Shown piece after piece: positions 5,683-39,475 of a DNA stretch of 51,546 nucleotides. Where the stretch lies: NCBI GenBank assembly GCA_000806155.1, contig JWKX01000014.1, forward strand, positions 1 to 51,546, given 5' to 3'. The position numbers and the translations under genes were made by a program. Numbering within the stretch: the stretch's first letter is position 1; every line of letters starts with the position of its first letter. The notes beneath the pieces are model-generated. The model ran no database searches and was not told the DNA's origin. It saw nothing but the letters and a program-made list of their open reading frames with translations. The DNA is from an archaeon GW2011_AR18. Its GTDB lineage: Archaea > Nanobdellota > Nanobdellia > SCGC-AAA011-G17 > GW2011-AR18.

Positions 5683-5865
5683 ATGGATTATGAAGAGTTG
5701 AAGGAAGACAAAGTCTATAAGTTAATCACAGAAATATCAAGATTAAAAGACTTATTATTCAAAGATGGAATTAATTTTGAATTTGGGGATGCTGAGTATA
5801 TAAAATATAAAAGATTATGTGAGGAGTTAAGTGCTACAGATACTATTGAAATTAAGATATCATAA
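5683..5865 (+). CDS. Hypothetical small protein
   Basis: MDYEELKEDKVYKLITEISRLKDLLFKDG... Confidence 0.4.
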   Translation: MDYEELKEDKVYKLITEISRLKDLLFKDGINFEFGDAEYIKYKRLCEELSATDTIEIKIS

Positions 5866-5958
5866 GAGTATTATGGATATTATAAAAGAACAAGCCAGAG
5901 TAATTCGTGTTATGGAAGAAGGTGCTAGAAGTGCTATAAAAACTTTAGAAAAACTTGT

Positions 5959-6498: not shown

Positions 6499-7526
6499 TA
6501 TTTTTCACCTAGTTTTTTATCTATTATCTTAAATAATTCATTATTTCCTGGGTTATAGCTTTTTTTCTTATATATCTTAAGATTAATTAAAAATTTTCTT
6601 AGATTCTCTTCAGTTAATTCTTTGTACATATTTCCATAATTATTCTCATTTACATATAATGCATTCAAGTATTGTTCAAATTGTTTTTTTATTGGTATTA
6701 CTAATATTGGTTTTTTTAGATAAATAGCCTCACTTATTAGATTAATTCCCCCAGTTGTGATTACTGCTTTACATTCTTTTATATCTTTATCAAAGTTTTC
6801 TTCTGAAAAGTTCTTAAATGTTATATTATTATCTTTTGATTCTTGATTGAATCCATATACTATAAACTCTTCTGAAAATTTTTTTAATTCTTCCAGTATT
6901 TTCTTATTTTTTGTTATTGATAAATATATTAATACACTATTTTTCACTTTTTTCTTGTTTTCTATCAAGCTTTTTCTTATTACAGGATCTATTCTGATTG
7001 CTTTAGACTTATTTTTTAATTTTTGTCCTGGTAATGTCAATACTATGTTCTCATCTGCTTTATTATATCCTACTACAAATTTAGATGTTAAGTAATCAAA
7101 TATCTGAAATTTAGGTATAGTGTAATTTCCATCTGTGATATAATGTTCATTATCAAATGTTATGCTTTTAATATTGTTTTTTTCTGCATAATATAATGTT
7201 CCTGGTTCGAAGTCAGATATTACTATCTCAGGATTGAATTTATCTATTTGTTTTAATGTTTCATTATCTATATAATCCTTTTTAATAAAGATCTTATAAT
7301 TCTTAAAGAATGTTTTTATTGCTGATACAGAATTGTTATTGTTTAATATCAGTTGTAACCCTTTAGCATAATACACATTATCAAAATCCTTTTTCAAATA
7401 ATCATAAGCAGCTAATCCACCTATTATCATTACTTCATGTTTTTTCTTTAGTAAATACTCAATCAATATCTTGCTTCTTGTGTAATGACCAGCACCTACC
7501 CCGCAGACTCCATATAATATTCTCAT
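6498..7526 (-). CDS. Glycosyltransferase, MJ1255/GT28-like
   Basis: MRILYGVCGVGAGHYTRSKILIEYLLKKKHEVMIIGG...VITTGGINLISEAIYLKKPILVIPIKKQFEQYLNA. Confidence 0.85.
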   Translation of the reverse strand: MRILYGVCGVGAGHYTRSKILIEYLLKKKHEVMIIGGLAAYDYLKKDFDNVYYAKGLQLILNNNNSVSAIKTFFKNYKIFIKKDYIDNETLKQIDKFNPEIVISDFEPGTLYYAEKNNIKSITFDNEHYITDGNYTIPKFQIFDYLTSKFVVGYNKADENIVLTLPGQKLKNKSKAIRIDPVIRKSLIENKKKVKNSVLIYLSITKNKKILEELKKFSEEFIVYGFNQESKDNNITFKNFSEENFDKDIKECKAVITTGGINLISEAIYLKKPILVIPIKKQFEQYLNALYVNENNYGNMYKELTEENLRKFLINLKIYKKKSYNPGNNELFKIIDKKLGEK

Positions 7527-27902: not shown

Positions 27903-28967
27903 TTGCTTAATCTTATTATGGCTGATGAAAAAGAGTTTTTGCATATTATCTCTATTATTCAGAATGCTAAGGATAGAGCTTTTTATTCTGTTAATAAGGA
28001 ACTTATTGATCTTTACTGGAATATTGGTGAATACATAAGTAAGAAAGTTGATAATTCTGAATGGGGTAAAGGTGTTGTTGAGAATTTAGCTGAATATATT
28101 AAAGATAAAGAACCTGAACTTAAAGGGTTTACTAAGTCTAACTTATTTAGGATGGTACAGTTCTATAAAACTTATAATGATAATACAAAAGTCGTGACAC
28201 TGTTACGACAAATTAGCTGGTCTAATAATATGTTAATCCTAAATAGGACAAAGTCTATTGAAGAGAAAGAATTCTATATTATGTTAAGTATTAAAGAAAG
28301 ATATAGTTTTAGGGAGTTAGAACGACAGATTAGTAGTAGCGTTTTTGAGAGAACAATGATTTCTTCTATTAAAATGTCTAAATTAAGTAATAAAGACAAA
28401 AATCTCGGCAGTGCTGAGACAATTGATACAAAAGTGTCAGCACTGCTGTCACAATCTAAACCTAATCTTTCTGATATTTTCAAAGACACTTATATTCTTG
28501 ACTTTCTTGATCTTCCTAAGGATTATTCTGAAAAAGACTTAAGGTCTTCATTGATTAAGAACTTTAAGAGTTTCATTCTTGAACTTGGTAAGGATTTTGC
28601 TTTTATAGGTGAAGAGTATAAGTTACAGGTTGGTAATAATGATTATTTTATTGATTTATTGTTTTATCATAGGTCTCTGCAGTGTCTTGTTGTTTTTGAG
28701 CTGAAGATTGATGATTTCAAGCCTGAGTTTTTAGGTAAGCTTAATTTCTATCTTGAAGCTCTTGATAGGGATGTTAGGAAGTCTTTTGAGAATCCTTCTG
28801 TTGGTGTTATTCTTTGTAAAAGTAAGGACGATGAGGTTGTTGAATATGCTCTTAATAGGAATCTATCTCCTGCTATGATTTCTGAATATAATACTAAGCT
28901 TATTGATAAGAAGATATTATGTAAGAAACTGAGAGAGATATTTAGGATAATTGGTGGTTATGATTAG
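27903..28967 (+). CDS. YhcG/DUF1016 PDDEXK nuclease-domain protein
   Basis: ELIDLYWNIGEYISKKV...GKGVVENLA...FIDLLFYHRSLQCLVVFELKIDDFKPEFLGKLNFYLEALD. Confidence 0.88.
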   Translation: MLNLIMADEKEFLHIISIIQNAKDRAFYSVNKELIDLYWNIGEYISKKVDNSEWGKGVVENLAEYIKDKEPELKGFTKSNLFRMVQFYKTYNDNTKVVTLLRQISWSNNMLILNRTKSIEEKEFYIMLSIKERYSFRELERQISSSVFERTMISSIKMSKLSNKDKNLGSAETIDTKVSALLSQSKPNLSDIFKDTYILDFLDLPKDYSEKDLRSSLIKNFKSFILELGKDFAFIGEEYKLQVGNNDYFIDLLFYHRSLQCLVVFELKIDDFKPEFLGKLNFYLEALDRDVRKSFENPSVGVILCKSKDDEVVEYALNRNLSPAMISEYNTKLIDKKILCKKLREIFRIIGGYD

Positions 28968-29229
28968 ATATTCTTATGATATTAATTGAGTATTAAAGAA
29001 ATATTAATTTTAATTAATTATTTTTGAATATTTCAGGCACAAACCTAAGGTTTTTGCATTTTCCTGACTTTGATGAAAACTTTTCTAAAAAACTTATAGA
29101 AAGACAAAAATCTGGAAAAGGATTTACTAGATATAACATTGTATATATACATCTTCTATATAAAAAATACCGAAAAAGTCAGACACTGTCTAACCAATCC
29201 TCATTTTTAATGTTTAAGACACTTCTATT

Positions 29230-30111
29230 TTATTTCAACCCCAACTTATCTAATATCTTAAATGCTTCCTTATCAAATTTTGAGAATGCAAACCATTTTT
29301 TGCCTAAGTCTTTTAATGATGCTCCAATATGATAAACTTCCTTATTATCAATTATTAGAAACCTATCATGTGATTGATTAAATTCTTTCAATATTATTGG
29401 ATTATATTGTGTATTGTACTTTTCAACATCTAATATTAATTGTTTTGAAATATTATTTGTATAAATTATAACATTCACATTTTTTTGGCATTTAGATAGA
29501 AGAGTTAAAACTGAATCATCAACATAATTATCAATAATAGATATGGAATATTTTGCTTCTCTTAGTAAATCAGAAACAAATTTATGAGCATCAAATACCT
29601 GACCATTAAAAAATATCCCTTGTTTTGGCTTGATGTCTTTACTTTGTATTGCGTCAAATATTTCATCAAACTTATCATCATGCTCAATTTGTTTTCTTTC
29701 AACTCTGTCCAAACGATGAAAAACTTCTGCATTTTTAGATATAAAATTTCTCATAGAGACAAATGCACTCATTATCTGAATACTCATTTTTACAGCAGTA
29801 TCACTTTTCAAAACTCCAGATAGCATAGCTACTCCTTGTTCAGTAAATACATAAGGTAAATACTTTTTATGAGTTCCACGTCCATTTTTTATGGTCACAA
29901 TTTGTGACCTTAAGTTATCAAACTCGTTATTTGTTATTTGAAACATAAAGTTCTCAGGAAATCTTTCACTATTTCTCTTAACAGCTTGATTTAATGCTTT
30001 TGTCTTAACATTATAAATCTCTGCAAGATCAGAATCAAGCATTACTTGTGTATTTCTTATTGTATAAATTCTGCTTTTTATATTATCTGTGTTTAATGTT
30101 AAATTTGCCAT
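29230..30111 (-). CDS. ORF6N-domain protein with PLD-like C-terminal segment
   Basis: IYTIRNTQVMLDSDLAEIYNVKTKALNQAVKRNSERFPENFMFQIT...; C-terminal HDRFLIIDNKEVYHIGASLKDLGKKWFAFSK. Confidence 0.85.
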   Translation of the reverse strand: MANLTLNTDNIKSRIYTIRNTQVMLDSDLAEIYNVKTKALNQAVKRNSERFPENFMFQITNNEFDNLRSQIVTIKNGRGTHKKYLPYVFTEQGVAMLSGVLKSDTAVKMSIQIMSAFVSMRNFISKNAEVFHRLDRVERKQIEHDDKFDEIFDAIQSKDIKPKQGIFFNGQVFDAHKFVSDLLREAKYSISIIDNYVDDSVLTLLSKCQKNVNVIIYTNNISKQLILDVEKYNTQYNPIILKEFNQSHDRFLIIDNKEVYHIGASLKDLGKKWFAFSKFDKEAFKILDKLGLK

Positions 30112-30248
30112 ATTTTTATTTATTATATTAAATTAATTTTAAAGTTTAAATTAGTTTCTGAGAAAAAATGGAAGATATTTCAGAAATTCTAAAAATCCTT
30201 CCGAAATTTTGCCTAAAGACTTTTGAACTTTAAATATTTAATGTTATA

Positions 30249-30911
30249 ATGAAAATTAATGACATTCCTTTCTATAGTCGTCCTGATTATAAGTTAATAA
30301 ATAAGGGTTCTTTGTATCTTGATGATGCTGAACTATTGGCTATTCTTTTTGGTAATGGTAATAAAAATGAAAGTTCTATAGAACTTGCTAATAGACTGTT
30401 AAATACTTATAATCTTGATAAATTAGATAATTTAAGCTATAATGAACTTAAGGAAGAGTGTAATGATAAGATAAAGCCTTTGAAGATTTTAAGTTTTATA
30501 GAATTAAGTAAAAGATATTCTAGATTGATTAAGAATGGTTATTCTAAAAAAATTAATTCTGCTGAAGATGTTTTTAATATGTTTCATGATAGGTTAGTTA
30601 ATGAGAAAAAAGAACATTTTATTGTTTTGATGTTAGATATTAAGAATCAGATTATTAAAGAAGAGACTATATCTATAGGTACTTTAGGAAATTCATTGAT
30701 ACACCCTAGAGAAGTTTTTAAATCTGCTATTAAAAATAGTGCATATTCTATAATTTTAGTTCATAATCATCCTTCTGGTGATTGTAATCCTTCTAAAGAA
30801 GATGTTGATATTACTGAAAGATTGATTGAAGTTGGTAAGATGGTTGATATTAAGGTTTTAGATCATATTATTATTGGAAGAGAAGAGTGGAAGAGTTGGA
30901 AAGAAATATAA
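30249..30911 (+). CDS. radC: RadC/JAB-domain protein
   Basis: EHFIVLMLDIKNQIIKEETISIGTLGNSLIHPREVFKSAIKNSAYSIILVHNHPSGDCNPSKEDVDIT. Confidence 0.88.
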   Translation: MKINDIPFYSRPDYKLINKGSLYLDDAELLAILFGNGNKNESSIELANRLLNTYNLDKLDNLSYNELKEECNDKIKPLKILSFIELSKRYSRLIKNGYSKKINSAEDVFNMFHDRLVNEKKEHFIVLMLDIKNQIIKEETISIGTLGNSLIHPREVFKSAIKNSAYSIILVHNHPSGDCNPSKEDVDITERLIEVGKMVDIKVLDHIIIGREEWKSWKEI

Positions 30912-30913
30912 GA

Positions 30914-33900
30914 TTATTTATTTTCAGAAATATCAAAGAACCTTTCAAAGAATCTAGTGAATTTTTCAATAATAGTTTCACGTTTTTTAGTACGTTCTCC
31001 TGCCTTAGAAAAACGAGATATAGGAGGTAAAACTTTAGTTATTGCTGTTCCTGTTGTTGATATACAACCATCTCTGAATGCATTCTCGATAAATCTATAT
31101 GTTTCATAGTGATTAAGGTTTTCATCTTTAATTATTCTTTCTAATTCTTCAATTTTCTTTTTCTCTACGAAGTTTTGCCAATCTTCATCTACCACTGATT
31201 TTATATTAAGAGATGCAATAAATTGTTCAATAAGATCCTTTTTATTTCGTAATTCTACACTCGAATCTATTGCTTTATTAATATCTATTAAAATTTCTTT
31301 ATCTTTTATATTTTCTTCATGATATTTCTTGATGAGTTTTAGAATGTAATCAATATTAATTTCTATTTGCTTAATAAGTTCCATTTCAAAAACAATATCA
31401 TCATTAATATTTTCTTTTTCTGTATCTTTACTTTTTCTAAATTCATTATAAAGGTCTATGTATAAACTGTGGTAATCTTGAACATCTCGCTCAGTTAATA
31501 TCTCATTACCATCAAATTCATCAAAAGTTGTAAGAATATTACGAACTCTTAAAATGCCACCATAAAGTTTAATGAAATCTTTTTGATTCTGTTCCCCAAG
31601 TATCCTCTCACCTATGGGAAATTTTTCTTGTAATTCTTCAATTAAACTTTTATATCCTCTTATTGTTTTTCCATCTTTCTCATAACCATTATAATATTCT
31701 CTGTAAGTTTTTAATAAAACAATTCCACTTGCTTCTTTATCTCCAAAAAGTGAGATAGATTCATTAGTTGCTTTTTCTAGGTTACGGAAACAAATAATGT
31801 TTCCAAAAGTTTTTATACTATTTAATATACGGTTAGTACGAGAATATGCTTGAAGTAAACCATGCAATCTTAAATTTTTATCTATCCATATAGTGTTTAA
31901 TGTAGTGGCATCAAATCCTGTCAAAAACATGTTCACTACTATTAAAATATCTATTTCCCTATTTTTTACACGCTCACTAATATCTTTATAATAATTCTGA
32001 AACTTATCAGAGGAGGTATTGTATGAGGTGCCAAACATTTTATTATAATCTTTAATAGCACTTTCTAAAAATTCTCTCGAACTTTCATCAAGTCCGCTTG
32101 TGTCTTCAGAATTTTCATCAATTACTCCATCTATTTCTTCTTTATTTACACCAAAACTATATATTGTTGCTATTTTGAGTTTTTTATCACTAGGTAAATC
32201 TTTGATTTGTTTCTTAAATTCAGAGTAATATTTTTTAGCAACATCAATAGAAGAAACGGCAAAAATAGAATTAAACCCGACTAATCGACGGTCTTTTAAT
32301 TTGTAAAAAATGTTTCTCTTTGTTTTTTGATCAAAATGTTCAAAAATATACTTAACAATATTGTTTATTCTTTTGGGTGCAGAAAGTGCAGCTTCTCTAT
32401 CAATATTATTAACTTTTTTATCTTCGATATTCTCTGCTTCTTTAAGTGTCGAAATATAATCTACCTTAAAAGGTAAAACATTTTTATCAGCAATAGCATT
32501 TACAATTGTATAAGTATGTAATTTATCGCCAAAAGCTTGTTCTGTTGTTTTTAAGTCCACTCTTCCGCCAGAAGATGAATTAACAGCAAAAATTGGCGTT
32601 CCTGTAAACCCAAAAAGATTATAGTTGTTAAATGCTTTTGTGATTGCTGTATGCATATCTCCAAATTGTGAACGATGACATTCATCAAATATCAGTACAA
32701 TATGTCCATCAAAAATATTATGTCCTTTATTTTTTGCTATGAATCTATCCAGTTTTTGGATTGTAGTTATAATTATCCGAGCATTAGGATCTTCAAGTTG
32801 CTTTTTTAAAATTGATGTGCTTGTATTGCTATTTGCAGCACCTTTTTCAAATTTATCGTATTCCTTCATTGTTTGATAGTCTAAGTCTTTTCTATCAACA
32901 ACAAATAAAACTTTATCAATAAAGTCTAGTCTGCTTGTTAATTGTGCGGTTTTAAAACTCGTTAATGTTTTTCCTGAACCTGTAGTGTGCCAAATATAAC
33001 CTCCTGCTTTTACAGTTCCAAGTTGTTTATAATTTGTACTTACTTCAATTTTGTTTAAGATTTTTTCAGTTGCAACGATTTGGTAAGGTCGCATAACTAA
33101 AAGTTGTTTATCTGTAGTAAATACACAATATTTTGTTAGGATGTTTAGAATGGAGTGTTTTGCAAAAAATGTTTTTGTGAAGTCAACTAAGTCTGTAATT
33201 GGTCTATTTGTAGAATCTGCCCACCAACTAGTAAATTCATAACTATTACTTGATTTTTTACCTTTTTTTTGTATTCCTTTAGCCTCTTTGATGTGTTCAA
33301 AACGAGTTGTATTACTATAATATTTTGTATGTGTTCCGTTAGAAATAACAAAAATCTGAATATATTCATATAAACCGCTTGATGCCCAGAAGCTTTCTCT
33401 TTGATAACGATTTATTTGATTAAATGCTTCTTGTATTGCTACTCCTCGTTTTTTAAGTTCAATATGTACTAAAGGCAAACCATTTATTAAAATAGTTACA
33501 TCATAACGATTTTTATATTTTCCATCTTCCGTTTCATATTGATTAATTACTTGTAAAGAATTGCTGTGAATATTATCTTTTTTTAGTAGATAAATATTTT
33601 TACTTGTACCATCATCACACTTTAAAATTTTAATATAGTCTTCTTGTATTGTAGCTGTTTTTTCTGCAATACTTTGGTTTGGATTTGCTAATTCACTATT
33701 AAAAAAATGTTTCCACTCTTTATCACTAAAAGTATAATTGTTTAATTTTTCTAATTGCTTTCTTAAATTTAATATTAAATCCTCTTCCTTTGTTATTTTA
33801 ATATATTCGTAAGCTTGAGTTTGTAATTGTTTGATGAAAAATTTTTCTAACTCTGCTTCGCTTTGATAACTTTCTGCTCTTTTTCCATAAGGATGAGAAT

Positions 33901-33964
33901 ATTCTGCTACAACAGTGCTTTCAGGATTTTGTGCTACAAGATTGTAATTTTTATTATTTGGCAT
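30914..33964 (-). CDS. hsdR: Type I restriction enzyme HsdR
   Basis: VHIELKKRG nuclease motif, GYIWHTTGSGKTLTS Walker A, LIFDECHRSQFGDM, GFTGTPIF. Confidence 0.95.
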   Translation of the reverse strand: MPNNKNYNLVAQNPESTVVAEYSHPYGKRAESYQSEAELEKFFIKQLQTQAYEYIKITKEEDLILNLRKQLEKLNNYTFSDKEWKHFFNSELANPNQSIAEKTATIQEDYIKILKCDDGTSKNIYLLKKDNIHSNSLQVINQYETEDGKYKNRYDVTILINGLPLVHIELKKRGVAIQEAFNQINRYQRESFWASSGLYEYIQIFVISNGTHTKYYSNTTRFEHIKEAKGIQKKGKKSSNSYEFTSWWADSTNRPITDLVDFTKTFFAKHSILNILTKYCVFTTDKQLLVMRPYQIVATEKILNKIEVSTNYKQLGTVKAGGYIWHTTGSGKTLTSFKTAQLTSRLDFIDKVLFVVDRKDLDYQTMKEYDKFEKGAANSNTSTSILKKQLEDPNARIIITTIQKLDRFIAKNKGHNIFDGHIVLIFDECHRSQFGDMHTAITKAFNNYNLFGFTGTPIFAVNSSSGGRVDLKTTEQAFGDKLHTYTIVNAIADKNVLPFKVDYISTLKEAENIEDKKVNNIDREAALSAPKRINNIVKYIFEHFDQKTKRNIFYKLKDRRLVGFNSIFAVSSIDVAKKYYSEFKKQIKDLPSDKKLKIATIYSFGVNKEEIDGVIDENSEDTSGLDESSREFLESAIKDYNKMFGTSYNTSSDKFQNYYKDISERVKNREIDILIVVNMFLTGFDATTLNTIWIDKNLRLHGLLQAYSRTNRILNSIKTFGNIICFRNLEKATNESISLFGDKEASGIVLLKTYREYYNGYEKDGKTIRGYKSLIEELQEKFPIGERILGEQNQKDFIKLYGGILRVRNILTTFDEFDGNEILTERDVQDYHSLYIDLYNEFRKSKDTEKENINDDIVFEMELIKQIEINIDYILKLIKKYHEENIKDKEILIDINKAIDSSVELRNKKDLIEQFIASLNIKSVVDEDWQNFVEKKKIEELERIIKDENLNHYETYRFIENAFRDGCISTTGTAITKVLPPISRFSKAGERTKKRETIIEKFTRFFERFFDISENK

Positions 33965-35062
33965 TTATTTTACCTTCCATCTGAATTCTTTAACAAAATT
34001 ATCGAATGTTTCTTGAAATAAATTTTTTTCATCATTAGATAATTCTTTGTATTCTAAATCTGATAATTTGCCATGGCTATTTAAATTTATAAGTTTTATG
34101 CATTCTTGGTTATTATCGCCTAAGACACAATTTTGCCACTCATCATATCCTAAAAAATTAGCAGTTTTTTCTAATAAATTTCTAAAAAGATTAAAATGGT
34201 ATTTCTGAATATTATTATTGTTAATGGCTTTTTGAATCTCAGCCATCACCACAAAATGATAGCCAAATGGAGAATCATCTTTAGTTTCAAGTTTTAATTT
34301 TGTGTCATATTTTGATAAAATATATTTGTACTCAGTTTTCTTAAAGGAATTGAATAAAACGTTATAAAATAAAGCATGATGGGTTGTTATAAGAAATTTT
34401 AACTTTTTGTTATTAGATCCTTTTATTACTTTAATCAATTCTAGGGTCATCATAATTAGTTTATTGTCATCTACAGACGAAACCGGATCATCAATAATAA
34501 CATATTCTAATTCATTAAATATCTCTGTTGATCTATTACATTCTTCAGTAAGATTTAATTCTTCAATAGCTGTTTCCAAAATAGTATAAAAAACGGACCA
34601 AATAAGAACACTTTCTTCGCCTCTAGAAATTTTTATATTTGGGGCAATTTCTTCATTTCCCAAAGGTGTATTAAAGGTTACTTTGCCCTTAGTTAAGTCG
34701 AAAGATGGTTCTATTTTAGTGTTAAGAATATTTTTGAAATTATTTATGATTTTTTTATCCATTCCCTCATCTTTAATTATTTTCGCTTCCCAAGAATTTG
34801 AATTAAACTCCAAAATAAATTCATCATTATTCCATTTAAATAAATCTTCTAAAAGAGCATTGTAACATAATACTTTAATATTTGTTGATTCATTTTTATC
34901 ATCTAATTTAATGAATTCATTTGATAATCTTGTTTTTCCTGTAGAATTGAAAGCGTACACTATCGCAATTTGTTTCTTATCTGTGCGTGTATCAAGATTA
35001 CTTTTTATCTCTATGGCAACTTCTTCAATTGAATCAAATTCAGCCACTTGATTTGACCTCAT
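33965..35062 (-). CDS. prrC: PrrC-type anticodon nuclease (ABC-ATPase + ACNase) homologue
   Basis: IVYAFNSTGKTRLSNEF, ISRGEESVLIWSVFYTIL, VIIDDPVSSVDDNKLI, LITTHHALFYNVLFNS, HFNLFRNLLEKTANFLGYDEW...NLNSHG; lies between hsdS and hsdR. Confidence 0.9.
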   Translation of the reverse strand: MRSNQVAEFDSIEEVAIEIKSNLDTRTDKKQIAIVYAFNSTGKTRLSNEFIKLDDKNESTNIKVLCYNALLEDLFKWNNDEFILEFNSNSWEAKIIKDEGMDKKIINNFKNILNTKIEPSFDLTKGKVTFNTPLGNEEIAPNIKISRGEESVLIWSVFYTILETAIEELNLTEECNRSTEIFNELEYVIIDDPVSSVDDNKLIMMTLELIKVIKGSNNKKLKFLITTHHALFYNVLFNSFKKTEYKYILSKYDTKLKLETKDDSPFGYHFVVMAEIQKAINNNNIQKYHFNLFRNLLEKTANFLGYDEWQNCVLGDNNQECIKLINLNSHGKLSDLEYKELSNDEKNLFQETFDNFVKEFRWKVK

Positions 35063-36179
35063 TAAAGCTTAACAATTTATTTCTGTAATATTCATATTGT
35101 TGCCGTCTTGCTTTTAATTCTGTTGGAAGACCAATTGAAATATCATTAACAAGAGCATCGAATTTATCAAGGATTTTAACTATTCGTTCTTGTTCAGGTA
35201 AATATGGAATTGGGATTTTTATTTTTTTAACATTTGGGACTGTTAATTGTGGGATACTTCCACCACTATGACCAATTTTAGTAATATCAAGTATATAGTT
35301 AAGAAATTTAGAGGTGATAATTTCAGTTTTAGGAATAAGTATTATTAAACGTACAATGGGTGTAAATTTTGGATTACGAACAGCATGATATCCAATTGTT
35401 CCGCGTGCAGATATTGTTACAGCTTCATTATCAATACTATATTCATCAGTATAACCATATAATGCGTTTTCTTCTGTGCCGTTAGAATAAATAGGAAATG
35501 GAAATGCGGACGTAGACACTTTTTGACCTTTTAAATATCTCTTTGGTAAATCTCCTCCTGCATTTATAGATAAACATGCTTCATCTAAATTCATCCACTC
35601 AATACCATCTCCAAAAGTCAATAATTCTTCTCTATAATATTCATATTGTTTCTTTCTTGCTTCCAGCTCCGCTTCCAGCTCCGCTTCCAGCTCCGTAAAA
35701 TTATCAAGAATTTTAACAATTTCTTCTTGGATTAGAAGAGGGGGACGAGGGATTTTAAATTTTTCAATCATTGGTTTTCTTATTGAAGAGACTGTTGCAG
35801 TTACTGCATGTTTTAATATGTATGTTTTGAATTTCTCAAATAAGTAGTAATAAGCATATTTTACATTTATCTCATCAGTAGTAAAGTGAATCCTATATGC
35901 ACGTTGATGCAATGCATATTTCCCCTTTATGTAGTGAAATATTTCGCCAATACCTCCCTCACCAGGAATGATTATTGATTCTTCATCAAATTCAAAAGTA
36001 TTTATAAATTTAACATGTTTAGATCGAACAAATAAAGGATATTTTCCGTTTTCAATTGCTTCATTTCCATTACTACTCCCAGTGCCTACTTCAGCAACTT
36101 CCCATAACTCTTTAAACTCAACACCATCGGGACAAAGTTCATTAATTAATTTATCAATTTTATTCATATTGTTAACCAT
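35040..36179 (-). CDS. hsdS: Type I restriction specificity subunit HsdS
   Basis: Two TRD halves, each followed by a related coil (ELEARKKQYEYYREELLTF / ELKARRQQYEYYRNKLLSF). Confidence 0.93.
   Translation of the reverse strand: MVNNMNKIDKLINELCPDGVEFKELWEVAEVGTGSSNGNEAIENGKYPLFVRSKHVKFINTFEFDEESIIIPGEGGIGEIFHYIKGKYALHQRAYRIHFTTDEINVKYAYYYLFEKFKTYILKHAVTATVSSIRKPMIEKFKIPRPPLLIQEEIVKILDNFTELEAELEAELEARKKQYEYYREELLTFGDGIEWMNLDEACLSINAGGDLPKRYLKGQKVSTSAFPFPIYSNGTEENALYGYTDEYSIDNEAVTISARGTIGYHAVRNPKFTPIVRLIILIPKTEIITSKFLNYILDITKIGHSGGSIPQLTVPNVKKIKIPIPYLPEQERIVKILDKFDALVNDISIGLPTELKARRQQYEYYRNKLLSFNEVKSSG
35659..35694. repeat. 3 x 12-bp perfect tandem repeat in the hsdS linker
   Basis: gcttccagctcc three times; encodes ELEAELEAELEA. 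Confidence 0.95.
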
Positions 36180-36181
36180 CT

Positions 36182-37759
36182 TTATTTTCCACTTTCAAGT
36201 TCTTCTACAATTTTATCAATTGCGGTTCTAAGTTCACTTTGTCTTTTAACGATTTCAGAAATTTTATTATTTAAATCTTTAATATCTGTAATTTCTCTAG
36301 TATCTTCTGCTACGACATAGCTTGAAACTGCAATATTATAATCATTTTCAGAAATTTTTTCGTTATCAACTAATTTTGTAAAATATTCTATATTTTCACG
36401 ATTCTTGAAAGCATCTAAAATCCTATTACGATTAGCATCACTTAATTTATTTTTATTTCCTCCACGAACAAACTCGGCAGAAGCATCAATGAATAAAGTT
36501 TTATTATCTTTTTTACTTTTTTTAAGTACAATTATACAAGTTCCAATAGTTGTTCCAAAAAATAAATCAGGTGGTAACTGGATAACACAATCAATATAAT
36601 TGTTATCTATAAGATATTTTCTAATCTTTTGCTCTGCTCCACCACGATAAAGAACGCCTGGAAATTCAACAATTGCAGCAGTTCCGCTTGTAGAAAGCCA
36701 TGAAAGCATATGCATAGTGAAAGCTAAATCTGCTTTACTTTTCGGTGCTAAAACTCCTGCTGGAGAGAAACGAGGATCATTAATCAGTAATGGATTCGCA
36801 TCTCCTTCCCATTGGATTGAATAGGGTGGATTTGAAACGATAGCATCAAATGGCTCATCATCCCAATGTTTTGGGTCTGTAAGTGTGTTGCCATGAGCAA
36901 TATCAAAATTATTATAATTAATATCATGTAAGAACATATTGATACGACAAAGATTGTAAGTTGTTAAATTAATTTCTTGACCAAAAAAACCTTGACGTAC
37001 ATTTTCTTTACCAAGAACTTTAGCAAATTTAAGAAGCAAAGAACCAGAGCCACAAGCAGGATCATATACTTTATTAACATTCTTTTTGTCAACAATAGTA
37101 ATTTCAGCTAAAAGTTCGCTAACTTCTTGAGGAGTGTAAAATTCTCCTCCTGATTTTCCAGCACTACTTGCATACATAGTCATTAAAAATTCATAAGCAT
37201 CACCAAAAGCATCAATAGTATTATCTGAATAATTTCCAAGACGAAGTTCACTTATAGATTCTAAAAGCTTAACAAGTTGTTTGTTTCTTTGTTCTACTGT
37301 ATTTCCTAACTTATTTGAATTTACATCTAAATCATCAAACAATCCTTTTAACTCATCTTCACTTTCTGTTCCTTTAGCAGAATTTTCAATATTTTTAAAA
37401 ACAGCAGATAAAGTTTCATTTAGATTAGAATCGTTACGAGCATTTTTTGTAACGTTCTTAAATAACTCACTTGGTAAAACATAAAAGCCTTTTTCTTTAA
37501 CAGTATCAGCTCGACCAAATTCTGCTTCTTTATCAGACAATTTAGAAAAATCAAAATCCTTTTTCCCAGCACGTCGTTCATCATCATTAATATAATTAGT
37601 TAAATTTTCACTAATAAAACGATAAAAAAGCATGCCTAAAACATATTGTTTAAAGTCCCAACCATCGACACTACCTCTTAAATTATTTGCAATTTGCCAA
37701 ATAGTTCGATGCAGTTCTGATCGTTCTTGTTCTTTTGTTACCATTTTAATCTTCTCCAA
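36182..37759 (-). CDS. hsdM: Type I methyltransferase HsdM
   Basis: SAGKSGGEFYTPQEVSELLAEI, VYDPACGSGSLLLKFAK, DAIVSNPPYSIQW. Confidence 0.95.
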   Translation of the reverse strand: MEKIKMVTKEQERSELHRTIWQIANNLRGSVDGWDFKQYVLGMLFYRFISENLTNYINDDERRAGKKDFDFSKLSDKEAEFGRADTVKEKGFYVLPSELFKNVTKNARNDSNLNETLSAVFKNIENSAKGTESEDELKGLFDDLDVNSNKLGNTVEQRNKQLVKLLESISELRLGNYSDNTIDAFGDAYEFLMTMYASSAGKSGGEFYTPQEVSELLAEITIVDKKNVNKVYDPACGSGSLLLKFAKVLGKENVRQGFFGQEINLTTYNLCRINMFLHDINYNNFDIAHGNTLTDPKHWDDEPFDAIVSNPPYSIQWEGDANPLLINDPRFSPAGVLAPKSKADLAFTMHMLSWLSTSGTAAIVEFPGVLYRGGAEQKIRKYLIDNNYIDCVIQLPPDLFFGTTIGTCIIVLKKSKKDNKTLFIDASAEFVRGGNKNKLSDANRNRILDAFKNRENIEYFTKLVDNEKISENDYNIAVSSYVVAEDTREITDIKDLNNKISEIVKRQSELRTAIDKIVEELESGK

Positions 37760-37946: not shown

Positions 37947-38942
37947 CTATATAACCTCAACCCTTTTATTCTTCACAAGTATCTCTACTATCTTCACAGG
38001 CAAGTTAGCCATATCTTCTGCTTCATATGGTCCATAGATATTCAAATCATCCCCTAAGAACTTAGGAACAGGTTCTACAAACCTTACTGTCTGATTCTTC
38101 TTCTCTTCAACTTTAGATTCTCCTTTAATTATGACTTTATCAGGCTCTTTTCCATCTAATAGATTATATAATACATTCTTCCTATAATTATTAAATAAGT
38201 TTACTAGTGCATTATACATCTCTCTCTCATCTTCTAGTAATGCATCTGCATCCTGTACTGTTCCTGATGCTCTTGAGCTTGATAATGCTAAATCTATTAT
38301 TTTTGTCTCTCTTTTCTCATATAATTCTTTCAATAACATCTTACTATTATCTAATTGTCTTTTAGTCTTACTTATACTATCATTTGCAAATACACTATCT
38401 TTTGATTCTTGACTCTTTAATATTGCCTTCTTCTCCTCTAGATACCTTAATAACTTTTTATAGAAGCTCTTATCAATTTTCTGTAACTCTGTTTTATACT
38501 TTTCTAACCTTAATGTTTCATACAAATTATCAAATGTGATTACTCCATCTTCCATTATACTAATCTCTGGTATCTCTGTTAATGCCTTTTCTACTGTCTC
38601 TATTGCTATTGATTTACCATAATAGTTAGTGCTGTTCCTTAATTGCCTGTACCTGTCAAATTTTATTGATAATTCATTCTCTTTTAATATATCTTTTAAA
38701 AAGTATGTTATTGACTCATGTGATTCAAATTTATATCCTTGCATATATCCTATTGCCTCACAATACTGTCTTAGTGCTTCATATAACTCTCTTAATATGC
38801 TTACATAGTTATGTTCTAATACTCTTAATTCTTTTGCTGATAATATTGCATTCTCTGCTGCTTTTATGAGGCTTTTTGCTCTTGTATTGTCTTTTATCAC
38901 AATTTTTGCATATCCCTGTTCTATACTGTTTTTGAATTCCAT
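37947..38942 (-). CDS. Apparent HEPN-GINS fusion: residues ~1-129 HEPN-like, ~130-331 archaeal GINS
   Basis: N-terminus AKSLIKAAENAILSAKELRVLEHNYVSILRELYEALRQYCEAIGY...YRQLRNSTNYYGKSI; C-terminus ITFDNLYETLRLEKYKTELQKIDKSFYKKLLRYLEEKK...TVRFVEPVPKFLGDDLNIYGPYEAEDMANLPVKIVEILVKNKRVEVI. Internal ATG at 38555. Confidence 0.8.
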   Translation of the reverse strand: MEFKNSIEQGYAKIVIKDNTRAKSLIKAAENAILSAKELRVLEHNYVSILRELYEALRQYCEAIGYMQGYKFESHESITYFLKDILKENELSIKFDRYRQLRNSTNYYGKSIAIETVEKALTEIPEISIMEDGVITFDNLYETLRLEKYKTELQKIDKSFYKKLLRYLEEKKAILKSQESKDSVFANDSISKTKRQLDNSKMLLKELYEKRETKIIDLALSSSRASGTVQDADALLEDEREMYNALVNLFNNYRKNVLYNLLDGKEPDKVIIKGESKVEEKKNQTVRFVEPVPKFLGDDLNIYGPYEAEDMANLPVKIVEILVKNKRVEVI

Positions 38943-39475
38943 TATACAACCTCTAATTTTCCTGCTAATGTTATCCCGTTTATTATGTTATTTACTAATT
39001 CAGGATTCTTTATTTTCATATTATTGAATTCTTTTTCTGTTAATCTGTGTATGCTTATTTTTCTTTTCAGTATTTTTTCGTATTTTTCTTTATTGAACTC
39101 TTTTTGTATATTTGTTAATATGAATATGTCTATATCACTGTTTTTTGTGTTTGTTGCTGTTGCATAGCTTCCAAATAATATTATTGTAGGGTAATCATAA
39201 TATTCTTCAAGTTCTTCTATTATTCCTGATTCTCTTAGTTTATCAAGATTATAATATAATTTATTGTTGATGAATTTTTTATTTTTTGTGTTTGCTATAT
39301 AAGTTTCATACAATTTTGTATCTTTTTTTTCTAATAACCCATCTTTTACAAGATTATTTAAATATTTTCTTGCTGTCATATGATTTATCTTTGCTAGTCT
39401 TGCTATCTCTCTTATGTGATACTCTCCTAATGGGTCTTCGAAAAAATATTGTAATATTAATAATTCTTTATCCAT
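38942..39475 (-). CDS. Winged-helix + MNT nucleotidyltransferase protein
   Basis: HIREIARLAKINHMTARKYLNNLVKDGLLEKK, then ILFGSYATATNTKNSDIDIFIL; TAATG junction with the HEPN-GINS ORF. Confidence 0.88.
   Translation of the reverse strand: MDKELLILQYFFEDPLGEYHIREIARLAKINHMTARKYLNNLVKDGLLEKKDTKLYETYIANTKNKKFINNKLYYNLDKLRESGIIEELEEYYDYPTIILFGSYATATNTKNSDIDIFILTNIQKEFNKEKYEKILKRKISIHRLTEKEFNNMKIKNPELVNNIINGITLAGKLEVV

Follow-up and report, generated by a model that had tools for sequence, protein, structure and literature searches.

PrrC is the textbook second line of defence: set off by viral inactivation of a restriction enzyme, the known members of the family cut a tRNA and thereby halt protein synthesis. 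In E. coli, the Hsd complex of the EcoprrI locus, bound to DNA, keeps PrrC latent until it is released by the T4 protein Stp, or by dTTP together with GTP hydrolysis; the freed enzyme cleaves tRNA-Lys at its anticodon, and the cut ends bear a 2',3'-cyclic phosphate and a 5'-OH (PMC3014915). The activity and regulation of PrrC, the mutagenesis of its nuclease triad (R320/E324/H356 in E. coli) and the contact made by D287 have all been described (PMC3014915, PMC2610378); the known PrrC genes are linked to type IC systems (PMC3014915) and encode proteins of 341-416 aa (PMC2610378). Another anticodon nuclease, RloC, is alike in joining an ABC ATPase to an R-x3-E...H nuclease, but it is twice the size, contains a zinc-hook coiled coil, cuts out the wobble nucleotide and is rarely linked to restriction-modification (R-M) genes (PMC2610378). 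Reviews record PrrC orthologues in bacteria only, plus one archaeal RloC (PMC2610378, PMC3014915), and earlier surveys likewise list PrrC as bacterial, one of them with 19 bacteria (PMC3014915) and another with PrrC and RloC under Bacteria (PMC3710099). Among the open papers searched, none pairs PrrC with DPANN, and PrrC goes unmentioned in a survey of archaeal restriction systems. PrrC is rarely seen in archaea; since our literature search was limited to open papers, we make no claim of priority.

Here we describe a prrC gene from the archaeon GW2011_AR18, carried on a stretch of 51,546 nucleotides (contig JWKX01000014.1) that we refer to as the window. The gene (33965..35062, minus strand) is an open reading frame of 365 codons with an ATG start and no internal stop, and no second copy was found in the host genome. 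Its product matched the PADLOC PrrC profile PDLC02360 across residues 10-363 (E=1.3e-105) and Pfam AAA_13 (E=3.2e-11); a search against NCBIfam gave no match. In alignment the protein is 39-46% identical to bacterial PrrC proteins, ~41% in the case of E. coli PrrC, and its length falls inside the PrrC size range, with no zinc-hook insert. A translated search of plasmid records with the window protein returned 113 relatives, 105 of them covering at least 80% of its length and several annotated as 'anticodon nuclease'. For numbering we relied on an E. coli plasmid protein (L007) of 396 aa, the length of E. coli PrrC; as it has Asp at 287, Arg at 320, Glu at 324 and His at 356, the published PrrC numbering can be transferred to the window protein. 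The first-pass annotation of this DNA had named the gene a PrrC homologue on the strength of motifs spread along the protein, and with the profile match in hand and every quoted motif found again in the window protein, the gene is a correct and well-supported addition to the already known PrrC family.

As at EcoprrI, the gene lies among type IC hsd genes in the order M-S-C-R, a placement inside a type I operon that had been read from the sequence and that proved exact, both by coordinates and by the profile matches of the subunits. On the same minus strand, hsdM (36182..37759) encodes a type I N6-adenine methyltransferase subunit of 525 aa (TIGR00497, E=1.4e-229; PF02384), hsdS (35040..36179) a specificity subunit of 379 aa (PF01420, E=1.1e-48) and hsdR (30914..33964) a restriction subunit of 1016 aa (TIGR00348, E=1.3e-170; PF12008 EcoR124_C, E=4.6e-67), the EcoR124_C match being consistent with a type IC character of the operon. 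The four genes are uninterrupted and all full length, with 2 nt between hsdM and hsdS, an overlap of 23 nt between hsdS and prrC, and no gap between prrC and hsdR, such that the ATG of hsdR directly follows the prrC stop. Nearly all related loci for which neighbours were available share the M-S-C-R order; the exceptions include a Paceibacterota cassette (L013), which unlike the window has the order M-C-S-R, and the two most divergent loci, L111 and L113.

Conservation of the ATPase and nuclease residues was read from a family alignment of 111 homologues, and all the features that follow lie on the minus strand. The Walker A/P-loop YAFNSTGKTRLS (residues 36-47, 34922..34957) holds N39, G42, K43 and T44, invariant in 111/111; the alanine at position 37 is off the textbook Walker A but is the norm of the family (108/111). 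Invariant in the same number are S146, E149 and E150 of the degenerate ABC signature SRGEES (residues 146-151, 34610..34627), D191, D192, P193 and D198 of the Walker B/D-loop IIDDPVSSVDDN (residues 189-200, 34463..34498), and the linchpin (switch) histidine H228 (34379..34381). The longer motifs of the protein are RGEESVLIWSVFYT at 147-160, IDDPVSSVDDN at 190-200, TTHHALFYNVLFN at 226-238 and HFNLFRNLLEKTANFLGY at 289-306. A strongly conserved block, CYNALLEDLFKWNND, is present as well and may correspond to the PrrC box, a 15-residue motif of the N-domain. The nuclease triad consists of R294 (34181..34183), E298 (34169..34171) and H330 (34073..34075), all three invariant in 111/111. The RxxxE pair with a His 32 residues after the Glu, noticed at first reading, is exact (R294-x3-E298, with H330 at E+32), and so is the spacing claimed from E. 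coli, R-x3-E-x31-H, the equivalents in L007 standing at 320, 324 and 356 with the His likewise at +32. Alignment of these residues with the PrrC triad had been set beforehand as a test, and R294, E298 and H330 fell on R320, E324 and H356 of L007. Going by the profile E-values and by the invariance of the triad in 111/111 homologues, the agreement in identity and motifs is far above chance. Our reading, to which we give a probability of about 0.85, is that this archaeal gene is an intact PrrC-family member whose product is a latent anticodon nuclease, restrained by the type IC R-M enzyme of its own operon.

Which RNA such a nuclease would cut bears on the segment DSPFGYH (residues 263-269, 34256..34276, minus strand), which aligns with the tRNA-recognition peptide of E. 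coli PrrC and places D263 at D287, the residue that contacts the wobble base (PMC3014915). The first-pass annotation had found this segment (KDDSPFGYHF) to look different and had suggested that the tRNA target may differ. The difference from the E. coli peptide, DSNKSFSYH, stands, but the segment is not unusual: DSPFxYH is the commonest form of the peptide in the family alignment (n=111), the residue after Asp-Ser being Pro, as in the window, in 77/111 and the E. coli-like Ser in 33/111, and the position of D287 is Asp in 106/111. Since the wobble-contact Asp is kept and the peptide is of the majority form, it gives no particular grounds for expecting another tRNA, and the suggestion is weakened. 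A PrrC-family protein that is still guarded by the Hsd complex and yet cuts another tRNA, or another RNA, would accord with the difference between the two peptides and with the view, expressed in a review, that substrates may vary with the recognition segment (PMC3014915). Besides D263 and the frequency of the Pro form, it has against it that this form also occurs in Streptococcus and Pasteurellaceae relatives (L023, L043) and that the PrrC proteins of S. mutans and H. influenzae, which themselves lie outside the alignment, are reported to have similar activity (unpublished, cited in PMC2610378), and we consider such a change of target rather unlikely. The only tRNA-Lys gene recognised in the host genome is the CUU isoacceptor, with introns and an anticodon loop of CUCUUAA; a tRNA-Lys(UUU) gene was looked for in the host genome and not found. 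The anticodon loop of E. coli tRNA-Lys is CUUUUAA, to which that of the host tRNA is close.

Because these conserved parts match, the E. coli scheme is the best explanation for the archaeal operon, and it is from E. coli PrrC that we infer the steps beyond gene identity. The Hsd complex would hold the window PrrC inactive on DNA, and it would be released by a viral anti-restriction factor or by a change in the nucleotide pool, which the ABC-type N-domain would sense while hydrolysing NTP. The C-terminal site formed by R294, E298 and H330 would then cut a tRNA, in all likelihood tRNA-Lys, in its anticodon loop, with 2',3'-cyclic phosphate and 5'-OH ends left behind, and translation would stop. 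The setting is unlike that of E. coli in that the host is archaeal, has RtcB and intron-bearing tRNAs, and comes without a known activator; we know of no Stp-like activator for archaeal viruses.

RtcB is the standard archaeal tRNA ligase, and an intact archaeal cassette raises the question of how PrrC works where that ligase seals exactly the ends that it makes. It is this question, together with the archaeal host, that gives the finding moderate interest, the family itself being known. The host genome encodes RtcB (C16:488-1798; E=4e-167), and no ATP-dependent RNA ligase (PF09414) was found in it; as many host tRNAs carry introns, the cell presumably must rely on RtcB. Members of the RtcB family join 2',3'-cyclic phosphate and 5'-OH ends (PMC3400036), and the host enzyme could reseal the cuts made by PrrC, which may make the arrest of translation leaky or reversible. 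That archaeal RtcB might neutralise the window PrrC was counted against the reading of a latent nuclease guarded by its operon, as were the weak Foldseek support for a HEPN fold and the recognition of tRNA-Lys(CUU) alone. Carried further, the argument would make PrrC, working against the resident RtcB, a tunable and reversible brake on translation and not a suicide device. We regard this as doubtful; if true, archaeal viruses or hosts could defeat PrrC without dedicated phage-type repair enzymes.

The tRNA genes of this host have D-loop and anticodon introns, and some are interrupted in the T-loop too, at C16 ~6838-7018 (L216), C7 ~75105 (L205), C11 ~5700-5880 (L210) and C12:66564 (L125). A near-identical insert of ~53 nt follows TTCRA in tRNA-Lys(CTT), tRNA-Leu(TAG) and a probable tRNA-Cys(GCA), and tRNA-Ala(TGC) has a different insert of ~21 nt. 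The insert sequence common to several host tRNAs suggests a spreading intron. Standard tools detect only 12-17 tRNAs in the host genome.

The operon might also be an inactive or degenerating passenger, acquired horizontally. PrrC is rare in archaea, and in the cassette of Methanoflexus mossambicus (L017), which like that of the window is archaeal, ordered M-S-C-R and in possession of the triad, hsdM is split into two frames (L017:3010-4590), with prrC and hsdR intact. In the window, however, the four genes are tightly packed and full length, every examined catalytic and ATPase residue that is invariant in the family is kept in PrrC, and the GC content of the operon (0.286) matches that of its contig (0.290 for the window); a passenger on its way to decay therefore seems improbable. 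A pseudogene was rejected on the intact reading frames and the family-invariant residues kept. That the host is archaeal, as had been claimed, follows from the company of the operon on its contig, L44e on one flank and a Gins51 C-terminal domain protein, SRP54 and FtsY on the other, in an assembly of 0.82 Mb (17 contigs, 90% complete), a small size that suggests a DPANN lineage. The closest operons are found in MAGs mostly labelled bacterial, and a mis-binned or chimeric contig would turn the cassette into a bacterial one, but with archaeal markers on both flanks and even GC we rejected this as very improbable. Pfam AAA_13, which the window protein matched, covers both PrrC and RloC. That the protein is an RloC-type, wobble-nucleotide-excising, zinc-hook nuclease and not PrrC, for which it could be said that RloC also has an ABC ATPase and an R-x3-E...H triad, was rejected as scarcely conceivable on size, 365 aa against the 658-897 aa of RloC (PMC2610378) leaving no room for a coiled-coil/CxxC insert, and on a Glu-to-His spacing of 32, which is PrrC-like and not the x36-52 of RloC (PMC2610378), the gene being moreover embedded in a type IC operon.

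Strong PrrC matches were found in one of the 371 genomes sampled from the host phylum (one of 103 in the host order), in one of 152 from the phylum of Methanoflexus and in one of 394 from that of the Methanosarcinaceae MAG L010. Weaker matches to the PrrC profile elsewhere in archaea had E-values from 1e-13 to 1e-3 and fell mostly in long frames (450-1918 aa); going by length, we took them for RloC-like proteins or unrelated long ATPases and left them out of these counts. A scan of 84,980 species yielded 521 relatives, the best 80 of which are overwhelmingly bacterial. No PrrC was found in annotated phage records; 24 viral contigs have relatives, mostly alongside hsd genes. In the PrrC tree the window protein groups with L010, L011, Moranbacteria, Paceibacterota, Arcobacter and a gastranaerophilale (support 99) and the Methanoflexus protein with Bacillota, and the HsdR and HsdM trees gave the same grouping as that of PrrC, all three being quick trees with some long branches in which the order within groups is unsure. 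As the trees of PrrC, HsdM and HsdR all place the operon with bacterial ones, the whole M-S-C-R cassette probably reached this archaeon from bacteria by horizontal transfer, and the separate Bacillota branch of the Methanoflexus PrrC probably marks a second entry into archaea. The pattern fits transfers of whole cassettes, with at least two entries into archaea. This adds a case of bacteria-archaea transfer of an entire guarded defence module, with relatives in other small-genome lineages.

Four cassettes, those of Moranbacteria (L012) and Paceibacterota (L013) and those of L010 and L011, fall in the same clade as the window for PrrC, HsdM and HsdR alike; the host labels of L010 and L011 (Methanosarcinaceae and Flavobacteriaceae), both short MAG contigs of 5 kb, are uncheckable. 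Their PrrC proteins are 48-65% identical to that of the window, and the window HsdR is 83% identical to that of L011 and its HsdM 87% to that of L010. Unlike the window, L010, the closest cassette, has a RhuM-family gene (L010:1907-2995) between hsdM and hsdS, and L012 has in that place two genes, one for an AAA_15 ATPase and one for a protein of 180 aa (L012:2801-4853), possibly a further guard module with an ATPase resembling PARIS.

No solved PrrC structure was found by sequence search of the PDB. An AlphaFold2 model of the full-length window PrrC, built on an alignment of 73 sequences (mean pLDDT 87, pTM 0.74), predicts a Rad50/SMC-like ATPase head and an all-helical C-domain. The N-domain of the model matched Rad50/SMC heads in Foldseek (best E 5.8e-5). 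In the model, R294 and E298 share a long helix (287-304), and H330 comes directly after the helix at 318-329. The C-domain modelled alone was all-helical too (pLDDT 87); a search of a viral-structure library with it gave nothing, and Foldseek gave no match below E=0.001, with HEPN structures among the weak matches (best E=2.2, 8yuf; best TM 0.56, 4nqf). Membership in HEPN has been proposed for the PrrC family (PMC3710099), and for the window C-domain the model supports a HEPN fold weakly.

Downstream of hsdR, at 27903-30911, lie genes for a YhcG-type PDDEXK nuclease, an ORF6N/PDC-S05 protein and RadC, which suggest a small defence or mobile island. Immediately upstream of hsdM, at 37947-38942 and 38942-39475 on the minus strand, a 331-aa open reading frame follows a winged-helix/nucleotidyltransferase gene (PDC-M05A). 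Residues 9-120 of this frame match PDC-M05B, a HEPN-like part by eye with an RNSTNYYG motif, and towards the C terminus the frame encodes the replication factor Gins51. It resembles a toxin-antitoxin-type HEPN partner fused in frame to Gins51, whose original start could have been the internal Met at residue 130.
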